Shown: positions 1,616 through 16,170 of the stretch, piece after piece
Numbering within the stretch: the first letter of the stretch is position 1
Layout: every line of letters begins with the position of its first letter
Assembly: GCA_016933215.1 (NCBI GenBank)
Contig: JAFGBH010000054.1
Coordinates: 1 to 34,987, forward strand
Source of the DNA: Deltaproteobacteria bacterium
GTDB taxonomy: Bacteria; Desulfobacterota; Syntrophia; Syntrophales; UBA2210
Direction of reading: 5' to 3'
DNA: 34,987 nucleotides
Translations under genes and position numbers: made by a program
Notes under the pieces: generated by a model
Told to the model about the DNA's origin: nothing
Databases searched by the model: none
Seen by the model: only the letters and a program-made list of their open reading frames with translations

Positions 1616-2593
1616 ATGATGAAAGAAGGCATCGACACGCTCATCCTTGAGGATTTTGAAAAGGGACTCGATCCGAGACATCCCGAGATGAGTAAAATTC
1701 CCGCTCCCATTATAGGGTACGGGGAGATAAGCACCATTTTCGAAATCAAGAGCGCTTCGATGACGGGCTTCGCATTCAAGCGGATGCCTATATTCCAAAC
1801 AATAGAAGAGATGAATCAGTATGAACATCTCTACCGGGAATACAACAGGCTTATCAGCAACGATATCGGCATACACGTTCCCGAGAGCGAAACGGTAAGG
1901 ATCGTGCCAGATAAAGGGAACATGGTGGTGTATATCGTTCAGAAAAAACTGCCCCCGCAGTCTATCTGCAACCGTGTCATTAGCGTCATCGACGATACTT
2001 CCATCATTAGGCTCGTGAACCTTATACTGAGGGAGATGAAGAAAGTATGGGTTTTCAATTCATCGGGTGGAGAGAAGACCATCGGTTTCGACGGACAGAT
2101 CTCAAACTGGGCGATAAAAGGCTACGAAGGCCCTGAGCCACCCAGGATAGACGAAAAGACCGAACTCTACTACATCGATACGAGCACCCCCCTTATGAGT
2201 CATAACGGTGTGGAAGGGCTGAATCCCGATCTTTTCCTGAGAAGCGCCCCCTCGTTTCTGGTATGGCTCATCAAATGGCTCTTTCTCGAGGACGTCATGA
2301 CGCGCTACTACGATTTTCATCTCGTCGCCGTTGATCTTATCGCAAACTTTTACAAGGAGCAGCGGCCCGACATTATTCCGTCACTCATCGAGGCGGTGAA
2401 TGACTTCTTCGAAGGAGAGACTTCTCAACTTCACGTCCCACCCATTAATGAGAAAGAGGTCCGTTCATACTATCGGGAGGATGCCCTGATCTGGAATCTC
2501 TATCTCAATCTCCGAAGATTTGACCGTTTTATCCATACGAGAATTCTGAGAAAGCCCTATACCTACATACTTCCGGGCACGATAAAAAGGTAG
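1616..2593 (+). CDS. Putative protein-kinase/APH-fold protein of unknown family
   Basis: A 325-residue soluble protein that I cannot assign to a named family with certainty. Its residue pattern fits a protein-kinase or aminoglycoside-phosphotransferase fold: a glycine-bearing strand IIGYGEISTIFEI (32-44), a lysine in FAFKRMP (K55), a helix with acidic residues around 70-75, a catalytic-loop-like FDGQISNW with D159 and N164 at the canonical D-x4-N spacing, and a DFG-equivalent Asp in YYIDTSTP (D188). The C-terminal half is helical and holds a hydrophobic LVWLIKWLFLEDV stretch, probably a buried helix. There is an ATG at 1616 and another at 1619, with GAGGACGAGG upstream. It is translated right after the aminotransferase. 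It may phosphorylate a small amino- or hydroxy-metabolite; a pseudokinase is also possible. Confidence 0.75.
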   Translation: MMKEGIDTLILEDFEKGLDPRHPEMSKIPAPIIGYGEISTIFEIKSASMTGFAFKRMPIFQTIEEMNQYEHLYREYNRLISNDIGIHVPESETVRIVPDKGNMVVYIVQKKLPPQSICNRVISVIDDTSIIRLVNLILREMKKVWVFNSSGGEKTIGFDGQISNWAIKGYEGPEPPRIDEKTELYYIDTSTPLMSHNGVEGLNPDLFLRSAPSFLVWLIKWLFLEDVMTRYYDFHLVAVDLIANFYKEQRPDIIPSLIEAVNDFFEGETSQLHVPPINEKEVRSYYREDALIWNLYLNLRRFDRFIHTRILRKPYTYILPGTIKR

Positions 2594-2610
2594 CAGATCC
2601 CATCAGAAAA

Positions 2611-2660
2611 GCCTTTACTTCTCTCACCTAATTTACTATTCTCTCACCGTTTATAAAGGC
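2611..2660. repeat. Direct repeat inside an inverted repeat, intergenic
   Basis: Two near-identical pyrimidine-rich units, TTTACTTCTCTCACC (2614-2628) and TTTACTATTCTCTCACC (2632-2648), are flanked by the inverted pair GCCTTTA (2611-2617) and TAAAGGC (2654-2660). The block lies between the kinase-like gene and the second type A element. It may be a regulator site or a long-loop stem; no function can be assigned. Confidence 0.3.
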
Positions 2661-2718
2661 AACCTGTCACACATCAGAGCGCCTTATTTTTATATCGATG
2701 CACCATTTCCCTATAGAT

Positions 2719-2833
2719 TGAAGTTCCCCCGCAACAAGTTGCGGGGAATCTCCGACTGTTAAGGAAAAATGTATTTTTTATTCGCTCGCTAACCCCGCCG
2801 CAAGCAGCGGGAATGCGCTCGCTTCTCAGTTCA
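2719..2833 (+). repeat. Double-hairpin intergenic element, type A copy 2
   Basis: This copy has the same architecture as the one at 150-312. Hairpin 1 (about 2723-2749) has arms CCCCGCAAC/GTTGCGGGG and is followed by the shared GAATCTCCGACTGTT. After an AT-rich spacer come TTCGCTCGCTAACCCCGC, hairpin 2 (about 2793-2811), then GCGCTCGCTTCTCAGTTCA. It ends 25 bases before the DUF1846 start codon. The copies share order, orientation and position relative to the start codon, but the hairpin loops differ, as expected for paired changes in a structured or mobile palindromic element. Confidence 0.6.
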
Positions 2834-2857
2834 AAAACCAAAAAGGGCGGAGAGAAT

Positions 2858-4375
2858 ATGGCAGAAACACAGGCATTCGACAATGAGAAATACCTGAAAG
2901 AGCAGACCGAGGCGATCCTCAAAAGGGTTGAGAGATTTGACAACAAATTGTACCTCGAATTCGGCGGAAAGCTTTTCTATGACTATCACGCCGCGCGTGT
3001 TCTGCCAGGATACGATCCGAATGTAAAGGTGAGACTCCTCCAGAAGCTCAAGGATAAGGCGGGCATTCTCCTTTGTATCTATGCCGGCGACATCGAGAGG
3101 AAAAAAATACGGGCGGATTTCGGTATTACCTACGACTCGGATGCTATGAAGCTCATCGATGATCTGAGGAGTTGGGGACTCGATGTCCTTGGAGTCATCA
3201 TAACCCGCTTTGAGAAACAGCCTGCGGCCATTCTCTTCAAGAACAAGCTTGAACGGAGAGGGGTCAAGGTATTCACACACTCCTACACGAAGGGATATCC
3301 CACAGACGTTGACACCATTGTAAGCGACGAGGGCTACGGCGCCAATCCTCACGTCGAAACGGACAAACCCCTCGTTATCGTCACGGGGCCGGGACCGGGA
3401 AGCGGAAAACTTGCAACCTGTCTTTCCCACCTCTACCACGACTACAAGAGGGGGGTAAAATCGGGATACGCAAAATTCGAGACCTTCCCGATATGGAATA
3501 TCCCGCTGAAACACCCGGTGAATATTGCCTATGAAGCCGCAACGGCAGACATACGGGACTTTAACCTCATCGACCCCTTCCACCTCGAGGCCTACGATAA
3601 GAAGTCGGTGAATTACAACCGCGATGTGGAGGCCTTTCCCGTTCTCAGGAGGATCCTTGAAAAAATTACCGGCGGGGAGTCCTTTTATAAATCCCCCACG
3701 GATATGGGTGTCAACCGATGCGGGTTCGCCATCGTCGACGATGAGGCCACCCAGGAGGCGGCAAAGCAGGAGGTCATACGACGATACTTCCGTTACCGGT
3801 GCGAATACGCCATGGGTTTTACCGACAAGGAAACGGTCCAGCGCGTGGAACTTTTTAATAAGGAGTTCAAAATCGAGCCTGAATACCGAAGCGTCGTGAA
3901 ACCGGCGAGGGATGCCGCCCTCGAGGCACAGGAACAGGACAAGGGAAACGAAGGGATATACTGCGGTGCTGCCATTGAGCTGAAAGACGGCACAATAATA
4001 ACAGGGAACAACTCTCCCCTTATGCATGCGGCTTCGAGTCTTGTGATACATGCAATAAAGCATCTGGCTGAAATTCCGAAAAAGATTCAGCTTCTCCCAC
4101 CAAACATAACCGATTCGGTGCGGAACCTGAAAACGGAAATCCTGGATGAGAAATCGGTGAGCCTCGATCTGAATGAAACCCTTATCGCTTTAGGAATAAG
4201 CGCAACGACAAACCCGGCAGCCCAGCTGGCCATCGAAAAGTTGAAAGACCTGAAGGGCTGCGAGGTCCACATGACCCATATACCCACACCGGGTGACGAT
4301 GCAGGGTTGAGACGAATCGGCGTCAATCTGACCTCCGAGCCCAACTTTTCCACGAAGAACCTCTTTATTGCCTGA
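2858..4375 (+). CDS. DUF1846 family protein
   Basis: A 505-residue cytoplasmic protein matching the DUF1846 (UPF0371) family in length and motifs: an N-terminal region rich in Lys/Glu with YLEFGGKLFYDYHAARVLPGYDP, a glycine-rich phosphate-loop-like VIVTGPGPGSGK near residue 183, and a C-terminal region with HIPTPGDDAGLRRIGVN. The biochemical role of the family is not established; the glycine-rich loop suggests nucleotide or phosphate binding. The start is set at ATG 2858 because GGGCGGAGAGA precedes it; the frame is open from 2813 through the repeat element, which is unlikely to be translated. It stands alone, with a spacer of 264 bases upstream and 193 downstream. Confidence 0.88.
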   Translation: MAETQAFDNEKYLKEQTEAILKRVERFDNKLYLEFGGKLFYDYHAARVLPGYDPNVKVRLLQKLKDKAGILLCIYAGDIERKKIRADFGITYDSDAMKLIDDLRSWGLDVLGVIITRFEKQPAAILFKNKLERRGVKVFTHSYTKGYPTDVDTIVSDEGYGANPHVETDKPLVIVTGPGPGSGKLATCLSHLYHDYKRGVKSGYAKFETFPIWNIPLKHPVNIAYEAATADIRDFNLIDPFHLEAYDKKSVNYNRDVEAFPVLRRILEKITGGESFYKSPTDMGVNRCGFAIVDDEATQEAAKQEVIRRYFRYRCEYAMGFTDKETVQRVELFNKEFKIEPEYRSVVKPARDAALEAQEQDKGNEGIYCGAAIELKDGTIITGNNSPLMHAASSLVIHAIKHLAEIPKKIQLLPPNITDSVRNLKTEILDEKSVSLDLNETLIALGISATTNPAAQLAIEKLKDLKGCEVHMTHIPTPGDDAGLRRIGVNLTSEPNFSTKNLFIA

Positions 4376-4498
4376 TCGGCAAAAGCCATAAACATAGACA
4401 TTCAGCCGACATTCTATATATCAGAATATTTTTCGATTTTTACACTTGCCTCCCTTTGAGGTAAACCGGCTTCCCCTATAAAAATCTCCTTTTGGCAC

Positions 4499-5602: not shown

Positions 5603-7213
5603 ATGGTTAAGATAACCTGTCTGGGTGCAGCGGGTTCGGTCACGGGATCGAACTTCCTCCTCGAAGACTCAAGGGGAAATAAAATTCTCGTCGATTGCGG
5701 TCTCTTCCAGGGCGGCAAGCAGATGGAGAAAAGGAACGACGGGGAGTGGGGGTTTGATCCAAAAGAGATACAATCACTGGTGCTGACCCACGCACATATC
5801 GATCACAGCGGCAGGATTCCAAAACTGGTGAGAGACGGATTCGGCGGAAAGATTATCACCTCTCCACCGACGGCGGAACTCTGCCAGATCATGCTCCTCG
5901 ATTCAGCCCATATTCAAGAGATGGATGCCGAATGGCAGACACGGAAAAACAGAAGGCAGGGGAAGAAAGATGTACGGCCCCTTTACACAATCGCCGATGC
6001 CGAGGAGAGCCTGAAATGTCTTTCGCCTCTTGAACGGGATGTTACTACCACCATCGAACCGGGGATACGATTACGCCTCAGAAATGCGGGACACATACTC
6101 GGTTCATCTATTGCCGAGCTCTGGATAGAAGACGGGGGTGAAGAGACCAAGATCGTCTTTTCGGGGGATCTGGGTAATAAGAATCAGCTTATCGTCAAAG
6201 ATCCAGAGGAAATCGTGGCGGCCAATTACCTCTTTGTCGAATCCACCTATGGCAACCGTCTGCACCGAAGCTTTGAAGACAGCAAGAAAGAATTGCTGGA
6301 AGCGATCCTCCACGCCGTATCTCACAAAGAAAAGGTGATAATTCCGGCATTTGCCCTGGAACGGTCGCAAGAAATCCTCTATCTCCTCGGCGAATTCTAT
6401 CGTGACGGTTCCCTTCCCGATATCCCCGTCTACCTTGACAGCCCCCTTGCCATCAAGGCAACGGAGATTTTCCGCAGGAACAAGAAATACTATGACGAAG
6501 AGGCACGGGTAATCGTTCAGCAGGGCTTCGATCCCTTCGATATGCCGAATCTCCACTTTACCCCCAGAACAGAGGAATCCATTGCCATCAATGAGCGGCC
6601 CGGCCCGGCAATCATAATCTCGGCGAGCGGGATGTGCACGGCGGGACGGATCAAACACCACCTGAAACACAATCTCTGGCGCCCCGGTGCCAGTATCGTG
6701 ATAGTCGGGTTCCAGGCGGGGGGAACAACGGGGCGGCAGATTGTCGATGGGGCAGAAAGCGTGAAGATCTTCCACGAAGACGTGGCGGTAAGGGCAAAGG
6801 TCTTTACGATAGGGGGATTCTCAGCCCATGCCGACCAGAAAGGACTCCTCGAATGGATCAGCAACTTTGCCGAATCCCGCCCGCGTGTCTTTATTGTCCA
6901 CGGAGAGCCGACATCGAGCGAGATACTGGCAGGCAAAATCGGGGAGAATTTCGGTCTCGAGACACATATCCCATTCTGGAGAGAAACGCTGCTTCTCGAA
7001 GCGAGAGAAATGAAAACAGAGGCGATGCCGGAGGAGGAAATACCCCTTGATACGAGCCACTATATGATGAACGGCATTGCCGATATTGAAAAAGAACTGA
7101 AGAGCCTTAAAAAACGCATAAAAAGGGGAATAGCCGAGGGAAAAATCGGCGAGGACGATGTTGAGAGTCTCAGAAAAATTCAGGGAGAGCTCTCTTCACT
7201 GATATCCAAGTGA
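5603..7213 (+). CDS. Beta-CASP metallo-beta-lactamase-fold RNase-like protein
   Basis: A 536-residue protein of the YSH1/CPSF73-like bacterial group. The N-terminal lactamase half has the zinc motif HAHIDHSG (about 60-67), an upstream Asp in VDCGLFQGG, and further metal ligands in RNAGHILGSS and VFSGDLG. The beta-CASP insertion includes GMCTAGRIKHHLKHNLW, with the final histidines in GGFSAHADQKGLLEWI and FIVHGEPTSSE. Together these correspond to RNA-processing exo/endonucleases that act on RNA in the cytoplasm. The C-terminus ends in a Lys/Glu-rich probable coiled coil (about 485-530). The start is ATG 5603 after GGTGAGGGC. All metal ligands appear present, so an active enzyme is likely. Confidence 0.9.
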   Translation: MVKITCLGAAGSVTGSNFLLEDSRGNKILVDCGLFQGGKQMEKRNDGEWGFDPKEIQSLVLTHAHIDHSGRIPKLVRDGFGGKIITSPPTAELCQIMLLDSAHIQEMDAEWQTRKNRRQGKKDVRPLYTIADAEESLKCLSPLERDVTTTIEPGIRLRLRNAGHILGSSIAELWIEDGGEETKIVFSGDLGNKNQLIVKDPEEIVAANYLFVESTYGNRLHRSFEDSKKELLEAILHAVSHKEKVIIPAFALERSQEILYLLGEFYRDGSLPDIPVYLDSPLAIKATEIFRRNKKYYDEEARVIVQQGFDPFDMPNLHFTPRTEESIAINERPGPAIIISASGMCTAGRIKHHLKHNLWRPGASIVIVGFQAGGTTGRQIVDGAESVKIFHEDVAVRAKVFTIGGFSAHADQKGLLEWISNFAESRPRVFIVHGEPTSSEILAGKIGENFGLETHIPFWRETLLLEAREMKTEAMPEEEIPLDTSHYMMNGIADIEKELKSLKKRIKRGIAEGKIGEDDVESLRKIQGELSSLISK

Positions 7214-7401: not shown

Positions 7402-8046
7402 ATGAAGGATAAATACTCAATCATCGGACCCCTGTACGATTTTCTCGCCACCATCTACAGTTTCAATCAGATAGACAAATGCAAAACTGCCATGCACGAC
7501 ACGATCAAGACCGACGATAAGGTTCTCTTCGCCGGTGTGGGACACGGGATTGACGCCATAGCGGCGGCTGAACGCGGGGCACAGGTAACGGTCGTTGACC
7601 TGTCGGAAACAATGCTTGCGAGATTCAACAGGGGTCTCAGGAAAAAGGAATTCAGGCACCCGATACGGCAACTCCATGACAATATTCTCAACATTGACGA
7701 ATCTTCCAGTTACGATTTCGTCTTCGGCAACTTCTTTCTCAATGTATTTGAAGAGGAGATGATGCTAGAAATTCTCAGCCAGCTCGTAAAACTGGCAAAA
7801 CGAAAGGGATATGTCGTGATAGGGGATTTCTCACTCCCGACGGGAAATCCTGTCGCACGGTTCTTTCAGATACTCTACTGGCGTATTGCCGATCTGATTT
7901 TCTGGGCCGCTGCACAAAATGCCCTTCACCCGGTCTATGATTATCAGAAATACATGAAGCAACTCGGCTGCAAGATAAAAACGGTGAAGTATTTCAGATT
8001 TCTCTTCGATGATCGTTACTATTCGATTCTGGGACAAAAAAAGTAG
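7402..8046 (+). CDS. Class I SAM-dependent methyltransferase
   Basis: A 214-residue cytoplasmic protein with a Rossmann methyltransferase core. Motif I is VLFAGVGHGID (41-51), followed by an acidic residue at the end of strand 2 in VTVVDLSETML (D66), then DNILNID and FDFVFGNFFLN-like motif IV around residues 92-115. It resembles UbiE/phospholipid-type methyltransferases, but the substrate cannot be read. It carries hydrophobic stretches near 150-172 that may contact a lipid or membrane. GGAG eight bases before ATG 7402 supports the start. The DUF2156 gene begins 76 bases after the stop, so it is likely part of the same unit, although it is not duplicated with the cassette that follows. Confidence 0.85.
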   Translation: MKDKYSIIGPLYDFLATIYSFNQIDKCKTAMHDTIKTDDKVLFAGVGHGIDAIAAAERGAQVTVVDLSETMLARFNRGLRKKEFRHPIRQLHDNILNIDESSSYDFVFGNFFLNVFEEEMMLEILSQLVKLAKRKGYVVIGDFSLPTGNPVARFFQILYWRIADLIFWAAAQNALHPVYDYQKYMKQLGCKIKTVKYFRFLFDDRYYSILGQKK

Positions 8047-8122
8047 CCAATCATTATCCGTCCCGATGCGCGAAAGGGTTCACTGTTGAAACACCGCTTT
8101 AAAAATCTTTAGTAAAGTGACC

Positions 8123-9097
8123 ATGCCGGACCATATAAATACCTTCAGCTTTGAAGAAAGAATAGCCTATTTGAGAGAATACGGCAGTCATTGCATGTCC
8201 TTTTCGGCCCTCCAACCGGGCATTCATTACTTCGACATGCCAGGCAAGGGATATATCGCCTATGCGGAAAAGTGGGGTATACGAGGCGTTCTCTCGGACC
8301 CCGTCTGCGATGCAGAGGATCGGGAGTCCCTGATCGGAGCGTTTATAAAAGGGGGCGGGCGCACGGGTTTCGCCCAGGTATCGGAACCTGTGGCGGAACT
8401 GCTGCACGAAAAATTTGGATTGTACGCAACGCAATTCGGCGTCGAATCGATCATCGATTTAAAAAACTGGGATCTGAAGGGAAAGAAAAAACAGGTCCTG
8501 AGGACCTCGCTGAATCAGGCCGTAAAAAGTGGAATAACTATCAGGGAAAACTATCAGGAACATCGGTACAACGAGCTTTCCCGGGAGTGGGTAAAGACAA
8601 GAAAGGTAAGAAACAGAGAGATCAGGTTTCTCATCAGACCGATGAACATGGACTATCAGGAGGGAACGAGAAAATTTTTCGCCTACCGTGGAGACGAACT
8701 CATCGGATTTATCTTCTTCGATCCCGTCTACTCACACAACAGGGTGATAAGCTATGTTCCCAATATCTCCCGATTCAGCCAGTCATTTAGGCAGGGCATC
8801 TTCTACACCATAATGTTACAGGCCATGGAAACCTTCAGGGAAGAGGGTGTCGAACAGATCCATCTTGGCCTTTCTCCTTTTGTCGTCGGCGACAGGGATC
8901 GCCATTACGAATCGAAAATAACAAAAAAGCTGATCCGTTCGCTCTATCATTACGGCAACAGCATTTACAGTTTTAAGGGGATATATTTTACGAAATCGAG
9001 ATTCCGTGGGAAAGACTACCCGACATTCTGTTCCCACCGAAGAAACGTGCCGCTCAGGGAAATCATAACCCTCTTTAAAATTTCAAATCTCCTGTAG
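8123..9097 (+). CDS. DUF2156 (LPG-synthase C-terminal-like) protein, cassette copy 1
   Basis: A 324-residue soluble protein of the DUF2156 family, the dual-GNAT domain found at the C-terminus of phosphatidylglycerol lysyltransferases. Seen: GKGYIAYAEKWG and SDPVCDAED at the N-terminal half, the family hallmark DLKGKKKQVLRTSLNQA (K/R-rich), SRFSQSFRQGIFYTIMLQAMETF and HLGLSPF near the C-terminus. It lacks the membrane flippase domain of true MprF, so it acts as a stand-alone acyl- or aminoacyl-transferase candidate. The ATG at 8123 is preferred; a GTG six bases earlier is also open and neither has a strong ribosome site. The reductase gene begins 57 bases downstream. It is a paralogue of 11001-12068, with long identical blocks. 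Confidence 0.8.
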   Translation: MPDHINTFSFEERIAYLREYGSHCMSFSALQPGIHYFDMPGKGYIAYAEKWGIRGVLSDPVCDAEDRESLIGAFIKGGGRTGFAQVSEPVAELLHEKFGLYATQFGVESIIDLKNWDLKGKKKQVLRTSLNQAVKSGITIRENYQEHRYNELSREWVKTRKVRNREIRFLIRPMNMDYQEGTRKFFAYRGDELIGFIFFDPVYSHNRVISYVPNISRFSQSFRQGIFYTIMLQAMETFREEGVEQIHLGLSPFVVGDRDRHYESKITKKLIRSLYHYGNSIYSFKGIYFTKSRFRGKDYPTFCSHRRNVPLREIITLFKISNLL

Positions 9098-9154
9098 CGA
9101 GACGTGGGGTGGAGGTTTGATTATAATAACCGCTGTCAAAAAAGGAGCGAAACA

Positions 9155-10696
9155 ATGGAAATACCCTCGATAATTCTGAAGAAACTCTATGTGGCGGGAA
9201 GCCTCGTCAATTCGGAAGGAGGAGTTCACTTCTGCCTTACCAATCCCTTGGGTGACGCCACGCTCACAGGCATCTCAAAGGTGGAGATAAACGGCAAGGA
9301 GATATCACTCGACAAAATAGTTGCGACGCTGGAAGGAAGTACCATACGGGCCTCCGAGGTGAATGAGGAGAATGCAATCCAGTTTCTTCTCGGGCAGGCG
9401 GTGGATATTCAGGTTCATATGGAAACGCTGGAAGAGGAAAAGGAACACTTCCTAAGTTTTGCCTTTGATACCGATCCCTTCGGTCCCCTGAATTTCGACG
9501 TCACCGATATTATTACCGAGGAGACCGCATCACCGGCAAAGATTCCTTACGACAGGGCCCGGGACTACGAACCCGAGATAATTCAAAGACGCCAGCGGTT
9601 CATCGAAGAGTTTGCCGGCGTAAGGCTTTCATATATCGATAAATACCCCTTTGACCCGAAGGTCGTGCAGGGGAATATTGAAAATTTTACCGGCGTGGCC
9701 CAGGTGCCGATCGGCTTTGCAGGTCCGCTGAAAGTTAATGGAGAACACGCCCGGGGCGAGTACGTGATTCCCCTTGCCACCAGCGAAGGATCTCTCGTCG
9801 CCTCGTACAACCGGGGAATGAAATTTATAAATCTCTGCGGCGGGATCACCACGACGATATCGGATGACGCCATGCAGCGGGCACCTGTTTTCATCTTTGA
9901 CTCAGGGAGGGAGGCACTCGCCTTTGCAAACTGGATAGACGAAAATTTGGAGGAACTTCGGCTACAGGCCGAGGCAACATCAAATGTGGCAAAACTCATC
10001 AATATTCAGAAATTTCTCGTCAGTAAGTTTGTTTACCTCCGATTCAACTTCAAAACCGGCGACGCGGCGGGTCAAAATATGGTCACCGTTGCCACCTTTG
10101 CGGCCTGCAACTGGATTTTGAATCACTTCAAAGACATCCGGCACTACTACCTTGACGGCAACATCACCACCGACAAGAAAGCGTCAATAATCAACACGCT
10201 CCATACGCGGGGCAAGCGCGTCACCGCAGAATTAACCATGCAGCGCGATCTCCTCATCGAACAACTGCGGGTTGATCCTGAAACCTGCGTCTATTTCAAC
10301 AAGGTGGCAAACCTCGGAACCTTTATGGCAGGAGGCTCCAGCAACGGCCTTCACAGCGCTAATGCCCTTGCCGCCCTCTTTATCGCTACGGGACAGGATG
10401 TGGCAAACGTGGCTGAATCCTCAACGGGCCTGATTCACATGGAAGTGACCCCCGACGGTGATCTCTATGCATCGCTTACCCTTCCATCGCTCATTGTCGC
10501 CACCTACGGAGGAGGCACGGGACTCCCCACCCAAAAAGAATGCCTCGAGATACTTGGCTGCTACGGGAAGGGAAAGGTCCTGAAATTTGCCGAGATCGTG
10601 ACCGCCGTCGCAGCGGCAGGGGAGCTTTCGCTCGGTACAGCCATATCTTCCCTCGACTGGGTATCGGCGCATGAGAGATACGGTCGAAATCGTTAA
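9155..10696 (+). CDS. HMG-CoA reductase-like enzyme with extra N-terminal domain, cassette copy 1
   Basis: A 513-residue class I-type 3-hydroxy-3-methylglutaryl-CoA reductase homologue, which in the family makes mevalonate from HMG-CoA with NADPH. Residues about 140-513 are the catalytic region: ENFTGVAQVPIGFAGPL, PLATSEGSLVAS (Glu211), GDAAGQNM in place of the usual GDAMGMNM, TDKKASIIN (Lys341), ATGQDVAN (Asp415), GGGTGLPTQ, and the C-terminal His506 in SAHERYGRNR. The full catalytic set is present. Residues 1-125 are an added beta-rich domain not found in typical reductases, resembling in pattern the beta subunit of C-glycoside deglycosidases. ATG 9155 is preceded by AAAGGAG; the frame is open from 9104. 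No transmembrane anchor is seen. The true substrate may differ from HMG-CoA. Confidence 0.87.
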   Translation: MEIPSIILKKLYVAGSLVNSEGGVHFCLTNPLGDATLTGISKVEINGKEISLDKIVATLEGSTIRASEVNEENAIQFLLGQAVDIQVHMETLEEEKEHFLSFAFDTDPFGPLNFDVTDIITEETASPAKIPYDRARDYEPEIIQRRQRFIEEFAGVRLSYIDKYPFDPKVVQGNIENFTGVAQVPIGFAGPLKVNGEHARGEYVIPLATSEGSLVASYNRGMKFINLCGGITTTISDDAMQRAPVFIFDSGREALAFANWIDENLEELRLQAEATSNVAKLINIQKFLVSKFVYLRFNFKTGDAAGQNMVTVATFAACNWILNHFKDIRHYYLDGNITTDKKASIINTLHTRGKRVTAELTMQRDLLIEQLRVDPETCVYFNKVANLGTFMAGGSSNGLHSANALAALFIATGQDVANVAESSTGLIHMEVTPDGDLYASLTLPSLIVATYGGGTGLPTQKECLEILGCYGKGKVLKFAEIVTAVAAAGELSLGTAISSLDWVSAHERYGRNR

Positions 10697-11000
10697 GAAA
10701 TTCAAGTCGTTTATCACATAATACGCCGTCGGCTACCGGTCTAACCGCAATAAAAGGACATCGCAGGCCCTCTAATCCACCACCACATAATACAAGTTTT
10801 TACCTGATATTACACTTGTAACTATTTAGCAAGACATCCCCTGTCAAATATGGCTTAATAATAACCCCGTACACGAGGATCTCTACTTCAAAGCAAAATT
10901 TGAAAGAGATGAAAAGGTACCGTAGAATCTTGATTTTTGAAATTCTTACAAACGGGAAGCGGTGAGGCTTTTTTCAATTTTCAGAATAAGGGGAGAACAG
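10697..11000. other. Intergenic spacer between the two cassettes
   Basis: These 304 bases separate the first reductase from the second DUF2156 gene. I see no gene, no tRNA and no convincing terminator. There is an AT-rich stretch, including TTAATAATA near 10853, that could carry a promoter for the second cassette, but no clear -35/-10 pair. The decamer CACATAATAC occurs twice (about 10716 and 10785). The last 30 bases hold the ribosome site GGGGAG for the next gene. Confidence 0.4.
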
Positions 11001-12068
11001 ATGTACGTCTCAAATCATTCGTCAACAGCTTTCGATTACACGCAGGGAAAGTCACAGGTCAGGGTTCTGCTCGACAACGTTCATGTACTCAGGAAACCTG
11101 AGGAAAAGCGAAGATTTAATTTTACCGAGAGGGTTCGGTACCTGAGGAAATACGGAAATCACTGTATGTCCTATTCGGCCCTCCAGCCGGGAATGCATTA
11201 TTTCGACATAGCCGGAAAGGGATACATCGCCTATATGGAAAAATGGGGGGCCAGATTCGCCCTGGCCGACCCGGTCTGTGATGAAAAGGATTACGAGGAA
11301 CTTATCGGGGAATTTATACGGGAAAATCCAAATTGCGGATTTGCCGAGGTATCTGAACCCGTGGCGAAACTTATCCACGATAAATTTGGATTCTACGGCA
11401 CGCAATTCGGCGTCGAATCTGTCGTTGACCTGAAATCGTGGGATTTGAAAGGAAAGAAAAAGCAGGTTCTGAGGACCTCGCTGAACCACGCAAAAAAGAG
11501 GGGAATCACCGTTACCGAGAAGCACAATGATGACGGAGCCCGAGAGCTCTCAGAAGAGTGGCTCAAGACGAGAAAGGTTAAAACGAGAGAAATTCTCTTT
11601 CTTATTCGTCCGATGAACATGGACCATGATTTGGGTACGAGAAAGTTTTTCGCCTATCAGGGTGACGATCTCATCGGCTTTATCTATTTTGATCCCCTCT
11701 TCGAGAACGACAGCTTACTAGGATATGTCCCCAATATCTCTCGATTCAGTCAGTCCTTCAGGCAGGGCATATTCTATACGATTATGGCTCACGCCATGGA
11801 AGTATTCAAATCGGAGGGTGTTCCTGAGATACATCTCGGACTGTCACCCCTTGTCACCGGTGAGGGAGACAAACACTATGAATCACCCATCGTCAAGAAG
11901 ATTATCCGTCTCCTTTACGAATATGGGAACAAGATTTACAATTTCAAGGGAATCTATTTTACAAAATCCAGGTTTCGCGGCACCGACTATCCGACATACT
12001 GCTGTCACAAATCAATAATGCCGGCAAAGAAATTTCTGACCATGTTTAAGATAGCAAACGTATTTTAG
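11001..12068 (+). CDS. DUF2156 (LPG-synthase C-terminal-like) protein, cassette copy 2
   Basis: A 355-residue paralogue of 8123-9097, sharing blocks such as CMSYSALQPG, GKGYIAY, TQFGVES, DLKGKKKQVLRTSLN, FLIRPMNMD, PNISRFSQSFRQGIFYTIM and FKGIYFTKSRFRG. By eye about two thirds of positions are identical. It has an N-terminal extension of about 35 residues rich in Ser, Gln, Asp and Arg that copy 1 lacks. No membrane segment is present, so as with copy 1 it is a stand-alone dual-GNAT transferase candidate. ATG 11001 is chosen because GGGGAG lies just upstream; the frame is open from 10962. The second reductase gene begins 43 bases after the stop, the same arrangement as copy 1. Confidence 0.8.
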   Translation: MYVSNHSSTAFDYTQGKSQVRVLLDNVHVLRKPEEKRRFNFTERVRYLRKYGNHCMSYSALQPGMHYFDIAGKGYIAYMEKWGARFALADPVCDEKDYEELIGEFIRENPNCGFAEVSEPVAKLIHDKFGFYGTQFGVESVVDLKSWDLKGKKKQVLRTSLNHAKKRGITVTEKHNDDGARELSEEWLKTRKVKTREILFLIRPMNMDHDLGTRKFFAYQGDDLIGFIYFDPLFENDSLLGYVPNISRFSQSFRQGIFYTIMAHAMEVFKSEGVPEIHLGLSPLVTGEGDKHYESPIVKKIIRLLYEYGNKIYNFKGIYFTKSRFRGTDYPTYCCHKSIMPAKKFLTMFKIANVF

Positions 12069-12111: not shown

Positions 12112-13653
12112 ATGGAAATACCAGCGCTGATCTTAAAACAGCTATACTCACTGGGTAGCCTCATGAATGTGGAGGGAGGGATTCGTTTCGGTATCAAAAA
12201 TCCCCTGGCAGATGCATCGCTGACAGGTGTCTCGAAAGTTGCAATCAATGGTAGTGACGTTCCGCTCGACAGGATCGAGGCCAAACTGAACGGCTCTACC
12301 GTACGGGCAACGGAAGTCGATGAAACAAACCTGATACCCTTTCCCCTGGGACAGGTCATTGACGTCTATGCCCACATAGATTCTCTGGAAGAGGGAAAGC
12401 AGCACCAGATCTGCATTGCCTTCAACACCGATCCCTTCGGTGCCCTCAATCTCGAGGTCAGTGACACCATCTCCCATGACAACGGGGACAGGATAACCAT
12501 TCCCTCAGACAGGGCTCGAAACTATCAGCCCGAAATCGTGCTCGAACGCCAGGAATTCGTGGAAGATTATACGGGCGTGAAGCTGGAGCATTTGACCAAA
12601 TACTCCTTCGACCCGGCGGTTACGCAGGGAAATATTGAGAATTTTACCGGTGTTGCACAGGTGCCCGTCGGCTTTGCAGGTCCAATCCGTCTCAACGGGG
12701 AGCACGCTCAGGGTGACTTCATTATCCCCCTGGCCACAAGTGAGGGAACTCTGGTTGCCTCCTACAACAGAGGGATGAAAGTAATCAACTTATGTGGTGG
12801 TGTTAAGACAACCATCTCGGACGACTGCATGCAGCGGGCACCTGTCTTTGTATTTGATTCAGCCAGAGAGGCACGGGAATTTTCCCTCTGGATCGATGAA
12901 AATATGGACGACATCAGAAAACAGGCGGAATCAACATCAACAGTCGCAAAGCTTTTGAATATCCAGAAGTTTCTTGCAAGCAAGTTCACCTACCTCCGGT
13001 TCAATTTCTCCACGGGAGATGCGGCAGGACAGAATATGGTCAACCACGCCACCTTTTCTGCATGCAACTGGATCATGAACCACTACAAGGGAATCCGTCA
13101 CCACTATCTGGAAGCCAACTTTGCCACCGATAAAAAGGCATCGCAGGTCAATATCATGCACACACGGGGGAAAAGGGTCACCGCCGAGATAACGATAGAT
13201 CGGGAAGTCCTGATACAATACATGAGAGTCGACCCGGAAACCCTCTGCTATCACAGCAGTGTCGCCAATGTGGGGGCCTTCATGGCGGGGGTGAATAACA
13301 ACGGTCTCCACTCGACCAATGCCATTACGGCAATGTTTATCGCCACGGGCCAGGATGTGGCGAATGTGTCGGAGTGCTCGGCGGGCATGCTCTACACGGA
13401 AGTAACTCCGGAGGGAAATCTCTATGGTTCGATCACTATTCCCTCCTTAATCGTTGCAACATACGGAGGAGGCACCGGTCTTCCCACTCAGAGAGAATGT
13501 CTGGAAATACTCGGGTGCTACGGCAAGGGAAAGGTGCGAAAATTTGCGGAAATTGTGGCCGGTGTTATTGCTGCCGGCGAATTATCCCTTGCTGCTGCAA
13601 TTTCATCCCTCGACTGGGTGACAAGTCACGAGCGGTACGGGAAGAACCGTTAA
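12112..13653 (+). CDS. HMG-CoA reductase-like enzyme with extra N-terminal domain, cassette copy 2
   Basis: A 513-residue paralogue of 9155-10696 with exactly the same length and residue numbering for the catalytic set: Glu211 in PLATSEGTLVAS, Lys341 in TDKKASQVN, Asp415 in ATGQDVAN, His506 in TSHERYGKNR. GDAAGQNM and YGGGTGLPTQ are also kept. The N-terminal beta-rich domain (1-125) is retained but more diverged than the catalytic part, including around GSLMNVEGGIRFGIKNPL. Both copies are therefore probably active and may differ in substrate or partner. AAAGGAGAGGG before ATG 12112 is a strong ribosome site. A rho-independent terminator follows the stop. There are no neighbouring mevalonate kinase, HMG-CoA synthase or decarboxylase genes. 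Confidence 0.87.
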   Translation: MEIPALILKQLYSLGSLMNVEGGIRFGIKNPLADASLTGVSKVAINGSDVPLDRIEAKLNGSTVRATEVDETNLIPFPLGQVIDVYAHIDSLEEGKQHQICIAFNTDPFGALNLEVSDTISHDNGDRITIPSDRARNYQPEIVLERQEFVEDYTGVKLEHLTKYSFDPAVTQGNIENFTGVAQVPVGFAGPIRLNGEHAQGDFIIPLATSEGTLVASYNRGMKVINLCGGVKTTISDDCMQRAPVFVFDSAREAREFSLWIDENMDDIRKQAESTSTVAKLLNIQKFLASKFTYLRFNFSTGDAAGQNMVNHATFSACNWIMNHYKGIRHHYLEANFATDKKASQVNIMHTRGKRVTAEITIDREVLIQYMRVDPETLCYHSSVANVGAFMAGVNNNGLHSTNAITAMFIATGQDVANVSECSAGMLYTEVTPEGNLYGSITIPSLIVATYGGGTGLPTQRECLEILGCYGKGKVRKFAEIVAGVIAAGELSLAAAISSLDWVTSHERYGKNR

Positions 13654-15105: not shown

Positions 15106-16170
15106 ATGAAAAAGGGCACTCACAGGTTTTTAGAAGTTTTGCGTTTTGCATGTCTGACCACGATTATTTTACTCGGATTTATTACAATCATAGGGACAAG
15201 CGGAGATGACGAGAAAACATCCGGTTCTGATACACGCGAAAGAGGTGTGTATAAATTTGTAGTGACAGAAATCGATAGCGGAGAATTTGAGCGCGGTGTA
15301 AAGACCCGTAAACTCGATATGGATAAGGACGAGGAACTGGTAGAGGAAAAAACCGAATATTTCGATGAAAACGAAAATTTACGAAGAGAAGTAAAAGACG
15401 ATGACGGTGACGAATTAGATGATTATGAAAATCAATTCGACTACAACGTAAACGGAGACATTGAAGAAGCCCGTTATGGATATTACGACGGAAGCGGAAT
15501 TCTCCAGATATCAAATATAATCGTATATACTTACTACAACGGCGAGCAAGGAGATAATCTATGGACGCAGGAGCTTGATAACGATTACGACGGCACCTTT
15601 GAAGTTGATGCTGCATACCAGTATACATACGTGGAACATGGTGATAAGTGGGATCTCGATAAAACGACATACGATAGCGACGGTGACACAGAGACAAATT
15701 ATACCTACACCTATGATTACGATTATGACGCTGTAAATGATCAATGGAACTTAACGACAGCTGGGTATTGGCTTGGGGATATTGATTTAGATAATCAAAT
15801 CTCCGAGGTTTCATATGTCTATGACGACGATGGAAATCTGCACATGAGCAAAACCGATTTTGATTTAAGCGGTGAAATAGACTGGACCTACGTTTTTACT
15901 TACGATGGAGACGGAAATAAAATAAGTGACGAAGCATATTGGGGCGATGGCGATACGGGAGATCTCATCTCAGGCATCTACTATACCTATGAAAGTGGAG
16001 ATTTAGTCAAAGAGGAATCTGATGAAAATGGAAATGGGAAGATTGATTCCGTTATTTATCGAGAGTATGACGATGACGATCCTGAGGGAAGAATAACAAA
16101 AGAAGAGACCGACTATAATAACGATGACGAAATCGATTTAACATACACCTGGGAATATATAGATAACTAA
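15106..16170 (+). CDS. Exported acidic protein with YD-like Asp/Tyr/Gly repeats
   Basis: A 354-residue protein. The N-terminus has basic residues and a hydrophobic segment ending TTIILLGFITIIGTSGDDE (to about residue 40), a signal-like pattern without a lipobox cysteine. The rest is very acidic and built from irregular repeats of about 20-40 residues such as YDDDGNLHMSKTDFD, YDGDGNKISDEAYWGDGDTG and ESDENGNGKIDSVIYREYD. These resemble Rhs/YD-type units and carry D-x-D-x-D/N-G patterns compatible with calcium binding. Codon use is more AT-rich than the neighbours. AGAAGGTG precedes ATG 15106. It has its own promoter and terminator, so it is a single-gene unit. Surface location is inferred; the function is unknown. 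Confidence 0.75.
   Translation: MKKGTHRFLEVLRFACLTTIILLGFITIIGTSGDDEKTSGSDTRERGVYKFVVTEIDSGEFERGVKTRKLDMDKDEELVEEKTEYFDENENLRREVKDDDGDELDDYENQFDYNVNGDIEEARYGYYDGSGILQISNIIVYTYYNGEQGDNLWTQELDNDYDGTFEVDAAYQYTYVEHGDKWDLDKTTYDSDGDTETNYTYTYDYDYDAVNDQWNLTTAGYWLGDIDLDNQISEVSYVYDDDGNLHMSKTDFDLSGEIDWTYVFTYDGDGNKISDEAYWGDGDTGDLISGIYYTYESGDLVKEESDENGNGKIDSVIYREYDDDDPEGRITKEETDYNNDDEIDLTYTWEYIDN

Follow-up and report, generated by a model that had tools for sequence, protein, structure and literature searches.

A C-glycoside deglycosidase beta-type domain at the N-terminus of a clade of class I HMG-CoA reductase-like proteins

Introduction

HMG-CoA reductase (HMGR) is an enzyme of the cholesterol pathway, and C-glycoside deglycosidases (CGDs) are sugar-removing enzymes of gut and soil. 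In CGDs, the substrate lies in a cavity between the two subunits, alpha and beta; CarB and CarC are inactive separately and active when combined (PMC8563793). The CGD of Microbacterium testaceum (8un2_A, 8qrz_A) joins both parts in a single chain, with the beta domain N-terminal. For HMGRs, Pfam already lists a family, PF25653 (HMG-CoA_red_N), under the description 'Hydroxymethylglutaryl-CoA reductase, N-terminal domain'.

Here we compare these systems with a locus in a window of 34,987 nucleotides (the whole stretch of DNA analysed; our contig G000:C42), which belongs to a Desulfobacterota genome of 2.69 Mb in 102 contigs. A first-pass annotation had proposed that both HMGRs in this window carry an extra N-terminal beta-rich domain resembling the CGD beta subunit (DUF6379-like), that such a domain would be new on an HMGR, and that it might bind a sugar or a partner protein. 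Our preferred reading, to which we give a probability of roughly 0.6, is that a domain of the CGD beta superfamily is fused in cis to class I HMGR-like enzymes that make up a distinct and old clade, in which it would take the role of an auxiliary subunit and the enzyme would act on another CoA thioester.

Gene layout

The window contains two tandem units, each made up of an MprF-like aminoacyltransferase followed by a 513-aa reductase. The relevant features are as follows.

7402..8046, + strand: SAM-dependent methyltransferase that completes the conserved trio (PF13649, 43.2 bits; best NCBIfam match CpaM, below cut-off; conserved neighbour)
8117..9097, + strand: MprF-like aminoacyltransferase (LPG_synthase_C, without the flippase part), partner of copy 1 (PF09924, 172.6 bits; conserved neighbour)
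9155-10696, + strand: HMGR copy 1, whole gene, 513 aa
9155..9520, + strand: CGD-beta-like N-terminal domain of HMGR copy 1 (PF25653, 99.1 bits, profile match 9173-9517; AlphaFold2 beta-sandwich; PDB fold matches)
9581..10696, + strand: class I-type catalytic domain of HMGR copy 1, with unchanged catalytic residues and three altered pocket residues (PF00368, 409 bits)
10962..12068, + strand: MprF-like aminoacyltransferase, partner of copy 2 (PF09924, 185.8 bits; conserved neighbour)
12112-13653, + strand: HMGR copy 2, whole gene, 513 aa
12112..12477, + strand: CGD-beta-like N-terminal domain of HMGR copy 2 (PF25653, 109.9 bits, profile match 12130-12474)
12541..13653, + strand: catalytic domain of HMGR copy 2 (PF00368, 423.7 bits)

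AGGAG-type ribosome sites precede the ATG starts of both copies, at 9155 and 12112. The start of copy 1 is likely this ATG rather than an in-frame GTG at 9104, because AGGAG lies upstream of it, copy 2 is arranged alike and relatives begin at the same residue. A scan for promoters and terminators returned 13 promoter-like sites (7.5 +/- 2.7 in shuffles) and 11 terminator-like sites (8.0 +/- 2.8).

The two whole reductases are 67% identical to each other, and their N-terminal domains 56% over 123 residues. Copy 1 is closest to the type found in G420 (L045; 76% over the whole protein) and copy 2 to the window's own family (86% and 81%), while the sister genera (G003 and G005) have a single copy-2-type unit placed between a methyltransferase and a GH3 gene. 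Judged by sequence comparison and the tree of catalytic parts, the two aminoacyltransferase-HMGR units are divergent old paralogues rather than a recent duplication.

N-terminal domain

In both reductases, the HMGR family PF00368 covers only residues ~143-511, and residues 7-121 form a separate domain that matches PF25653 over its whole profile (positions 1-115 of 115) and far above the curated cut-off of 27 bits. The extra domain proposed on both enzymes is thus borne out, being in each an independent beta-sandwich from residue 1 to ~122 (9155-9520 and 12112-12477); the start proposed for copy 1 stands, and the proposed end at 9530 lies slightly past the domain, whose profile match stops at 9517. 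An AlphaFold2 model of residues 1-130, built from 22 sequences (mean pLDDT 83.3, pTM 0.71), is an all-beta sandwich whose only helix is short and N-terminal, in agreement with the earlier remark that the segment does not resemble the HMGR membrane part. The motifs quoted in that annotation are also conserved, with G15, G23, F26, N30 and T106 invariant in 18 relatives that include two non-HMGR fusions. Identity of the segment with the known membrane or N-terminal part of HMGR structures was ruled out by the all-beta model, and no PDB match to an HMGR touches residues 1-133. The supposed novelty on an HMGR does not hold, since PF25653 is the same domain in the same position on the same enzyme and makes the segment a known HMGR N-terminal extension.

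The likeness to CGD beta was found by fold and by sequence. A Foldseek search of the PDB with the domain model gave 17 chains at E<=0.001, every one a CGD beta chain or the single-chain M. testaceum CGD, with TM scores (query) of 0.61-0.73 at 10-21% sequence identity and the best match to 8qvc_B (E 3.4e-7, TM 0.69/0.71). In a VIA-align 2 comparison with 995 chains, ranks 1-12 were all CGDs (Z 14.4 to 10.4), followed by FlaG at 9.1. A single-sequence search of the PDB with the domain gave only one irrelevant match (E 0.89), so a profile was needed; one built from 18 domains placed 8umc_B/8qvc_B (DUF6379) at the top of the PDB sequences (E 0.002, 94 collinear positions), and the next different protein came only at E 0.27. 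Profile-profile comparison by hhalign with eight DUF6379 proteins drawn from plasmids, the check that the first-pass annotation had named alongside structure prediction, reached a probability of 97.4 (E 1.2e-11, score 68.5), against a maximum score of 18.9 (probability <=2.6) in 200 column shuffles and scores of 14.3 and 13.0 (probability <0.5) with reversed profiles; a domain set restricted to HMGRs still gave 96.8.

Pfam models connect the two groups in both directions below their cut-offs. The CGD beta of D. aetherius matches PF25653 at 8e-5, the domains of L048 and L017 match the CGDB family at 5e-4 and 6e-4, and the CGDB model matches 6 of the 18 domain members at E<=5 (best 6.4e-4; below cut-off in members checked singly). 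Against the curated cut-off of 27.6 bits for PF19906 (CGDB), copy 1 scored 11.9 bits (E 0.21) and copy 2 had no match at E<=1. The shared beta-sandwich and the collinear sequence profile together place the domain in the CGD beta superfamily: it is kin to CGD beta by fold and descent, as a sister family and not a CGDB member under the Pfam rule. The CGDB model matched 0 of 297 genomes in a census of the window's phylum, a zero that does not show absence because the model matched nothing anywhere.

The kinship extends to the fold over ~110-124 residues of CGD beta (8qvc_B, 7dnm_B, 7bvr_B) and to the collinear motifs S-L, G--F, D/N-G-E--P and G-EH. Unlike the HMGR domain, CGD beta is a separate subunit whose gene, in annotated plasmid records, adjoins one of TIM-barrel/sugar-isomerase type; among the scanned neighbours between 268 and 22741 (part of the ORFs), there was no xylose-isomerase-like alpha subunit. 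CGD beta also has a YYRG-type loop that is missing from the HMGR domain in the alignment with the eight DUF6379 proteins, where Y28 and R29 are invariant and the loop aligns to an N-P-L-x-D-A stretch. The single-chain M. testaceum CGD shares the arrangement, aligning over its residues ~3-177 with an N-terminal beta domain in one chain; its catalytic half is a different enzyme.

The domain is also found on other proteins. It stands at the front of a URO-D protein with MtaA/CmuA-like matches in G129 (L017; 52.7 bits) and of a GH51-like arabinofuranosidase in G434 (L018; 42.4 bits), in each case with the two domains in one stop-free open frame, though each fusion comes from one genome and may be an assembly error. 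Every other locus examined with the profile is an HMGR fusion (63 frames, counting duplicates), and no stand-alone copy was seen among the loci examined. The domain is not exclusive to HMGR, contrary to what the Pfam name implies. Because the domain also heads URO-D/MtaA-like and GH51-like proteins, PF25653 is by its architectures a shuffled, transferable N-terminal module; we further differ from Pfam in grouping the family with CGD beta. Carriers made up 3 of 100 genomes in a sample of relatives and 13 of 395 in a sample of the phylum (each including the window's genome), and 21 of 345 in a Bacteroidota sample. The relatives with named genomes are metagenome-assembled genomes (MAGs) labelled Deltaproteobacteria, Desulfobacterales or Syntrophaceae, one Acidobacteriota and several Bacteroidota. 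A tblastn search of plasmids with the HMGR-type and GH51-type domains found none.

Between copy 2 and more distant Desulfobacterota loci, identity is 35-46% in the domain and 66-73% in the catalytic part. The domain evolves faster than the catalytic part, which suits a structural role no less than a place in the pocket. One could take it for a mere structural, solubility or oligomerisation appendage, truly descended from CGD beta and without meaning for the active site, as its rapid change relative to the catalytic domain would allow and as the invariant residues, which look structural in being common to the non-HMGR fusions, would also allow. We consider this unlikely in view of the contribution of known CGD beta to the active site, as given in the available text of PMC8563793, and of the presence of the domain in 63 of 63 HMGR frames of the fused clade, a weak count in that duplicates are included and the loci were chosen by the domain. 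A full-length AlphaFold2 model was weak (pLDDT 73.6, pTM 0.59, residues 123-127 below 50) and uninformative on how the domain docks.

Catalytic domain

The catalytic parts are of class I HMGR type by their PF00368 scores and by the catalytic Glu, Lys, Asp and His, which they share with 6hr7 and 8ecg and which are kept in 47 of 47 fused sequences; they do not reach the NCBIfam equivalog TIGR00533 (359.1 and 352.2 bits; cut-off 441.8). In human HMGR numbering, the equivalents of Glu559, Arg590, Asp653, Asn658, Asp690, Lys691, Lys692, Asn755, Asp767 and His866 are present in all 47 and that of His752 in 45. The pocket, in contrast to that of 6hr7 and 8ecg, which carry the standard Met, Met and Ser, has Ala at the Met655 equivalent and Gln at the Met657 equivalent in every fused sequence, and Asp (16) or Glu (31) at the equivalent of Ser684, a residue that contacts HMG in the human enzyme. 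The Val of TVGGGT is replaced by Tyr (41), His (5) or Phe (1). Since the same changes are uniform across three phyla, they argue for a shared, different preference in substrate or cofactor.

In a tree of catalytic parts only (the 47 fusions, L102 and 6hr7; 8ecg left out), the fusions group together and the Desulfobacterota label takes three changes, with rooting and near-root order unsure because the two outgroups sit on very long branches. For both the pocket survey and the tree, two sequences cut by contig ends (L042 and L075) were removed and near-identical pairs were reduced to a single member.

The outgroup L102 (G434:C35, ORF 1668-4427) is itself unusual. Its 920-aa frame begins with ~145 aa that precede a class I HMGR-like domain (PF00368, 310 bits) and ends in a domain of EcKL/APH kinase-like type. 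The HMGR-like domain has lost catalytic residues, with Arg, Ile and Gln at the equivalents of Lys691, Asp690 and His866, so that the protein probably joins a pseudo-HMGR to a kinase.

Pathway context

We scored 36 genomes that carry fused HMGRs (13 Desulfobacterota, 1 Acidobacteriota and 22 Bacteroidota) for HMG-CoA synthase (HMGS; PF01154) and for GcpE of the MEP pathway, as single markers in genomes that are partly incomplete. GcpE was found in 34 of the 36 and HMGS in 2, so that 34 genomes have GcpE without HMGS; the window's own genome (GcpE 1, HMGS 0) is among those that lack the mevalonate-pathway marker, and in this and in its additional domain the fused HMGR departs from class I HMGRs. 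The two HMGS-bearing carriers, both of them lacking GcpE, are MAGs from Bernardetia and Saprospiraceae (G480 and G481; L100 and L101), each with a second HMGR that has no N-terminal domain and adjoins a GHMP-kinase-like ORF. These second HMGRs gave no match to the window's catalytic domain at E 1e-10 and look like class II enzymes by sequence. Mevalonate kinase (TIGR00549) was over cut-off in 0 of 18 genomes, the two HMGS-bearing ones included, which makes this zero uninformative.

Because domain-free relatives (G001, G002 and G006) likewise have GcpE and lack HMGS, the MEP pathway is the background of the phylum, and the informative point is that an HMGR occurs in MEP-type genomes at all. By these markers, nearly all of the examined carriers appear to have their fused HMGR outside the standard mevalonate pathway. 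Leucine breakdown also yields HMG-CoA, and with every catalytic residue kept the fused enzymes might be ordinary HMGRs that make mevalonate from such a source for a non-isoprenoid use. This is doubtful when set against the three pocket residues that are changed throughout, among them Ser to an acidic residue in 47 of 47, and against TIGR00533 scores below the cut-off.

Neighbouring genes

Across 19 distinct Desulfobacterota loci (L023-L047, with four contigs that had been fetched twice counted once), an aminoacyltransferase gene lies <=75 bases from the HMGR in 18 and a methyltransferase <=1.5 kb away in 17. The exceptions are L042, cut by a contig end, which is without both partners, and L037, which is without the methyltransferase; L053, where only the HMGR start is on the contig, has both. 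Neither partner was nearby at five Acidobacteriota and Bacteroidota loci, some with short flanks, and no MprF-like or methyltransferase partner adjoined the HMGR at the Bacteroidota loci compared. The trio thus belongs to Desulfobacterota and cannot account for the domain, which loci from other phyla have without these partners. A docking platform that holds the aminoacyltransferase, the methyltransferase or both in a complex with HMGR would make sense of the near-constant company in Desulfobacterota, yet this role is improbable for a domain that lacks such neighbours at all five of the other loci (short flanks included) and that also occurs on URO-D-like and GH51-like proteins.

Discussion

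Carbohydrate binding, as suggested in the first-pass annotation, is very improbable: relatives do occur in sugar-metabolising enzymes and a GH51-like arabinofuranosidase is among the fusion partners, but we found nothing else in its support, and the available text of PMC8563793 describes CGD beta as one wall of a cavity formed with alpha and not as a sugar-binding module in its own right. The role of an enzyme partner seems the better lead, because CGD beta builds the active-site cavity jointly with the alpha subunit.

We return to a CGD-beta-type domain fused in cis to a separate HMGR-like clade. On the best reading of these data, the fused HMGR would be a neofunctionalised thioester reductase with a built-in auxiliary subunit, its N-terminal module acting in the manner of CGD beta or of the beta half in the single-chain M. 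testaceum CGD. The module may pack on the catalytic domain and shape or stabilise the substrate site or the assembly, and the enzyme would reduce another CoA thioester in place of, or in addition to, HMG-CoA; in Desulfobacterota, it may act together with the MprF-like aminoacyltransferase and the methyltransferase. A more specific proposal can be offered only tentatively, namely that this clade of Desulfobacterota, Bacteroidota and Acidobacteriota left the mevalonate pathway, that the CGD-beta-type domain walls a remodelled pocket, that the thioester reduced possibly has an amine or neutral end in place of the HMG carboxylate, and that in Desulfobacterota the product feeds a lipid-type modification by the aminoacyltransferase and methyltransferase. 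If the clade does stand outside the mevalonate pathway in this manner, CGD beta would be an instance of an enzyme-helper module of general use.

The open-access literature, with most subscription journals outside it, held nothing pertinent on a link of HMGR with CGD or with an MprF-like synthase, on DUF6379, PF25653 or the Salinibacter HMGR, or on mevalonate in Deltaproteobacteria and Bacteroidetes. The link between PF25653 and CGD beta, the presence of the module on URO-D/MtaA-like and GH51-like proteins and the position of the fused HMGRs outside the mevalonate pathway appear, within that literature, to be unreported. An HMGR extension without assigned function is now tied to a structurally known helper subunit, and that subunit to a module common to unrelated enzymes. 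Genes annotated as HMG-CoA reductase in bacteria with the MEP pathway probably do not report the mevalonate pathway, and a mainstream drug-target family with an orphan branch whose pocket changes are fixed should be of interest to enzymologists and genome annotators.

Other observations in the window

Two further genes of the window deserve mention. At 15106-16170 lies a 354-aa protein without a Pfam or NCBIfam match; the sister genera G003 and G005 have a counterpart next to the cluster, conserved at 32-34%. At 5603-7213 lies a Beta-CASP metallo-hydrolase, which gives strong matches below cut-off to the type VII CRISPR nuclease model Cas14 (383.5 of 800 bits) and to aCPSF1.
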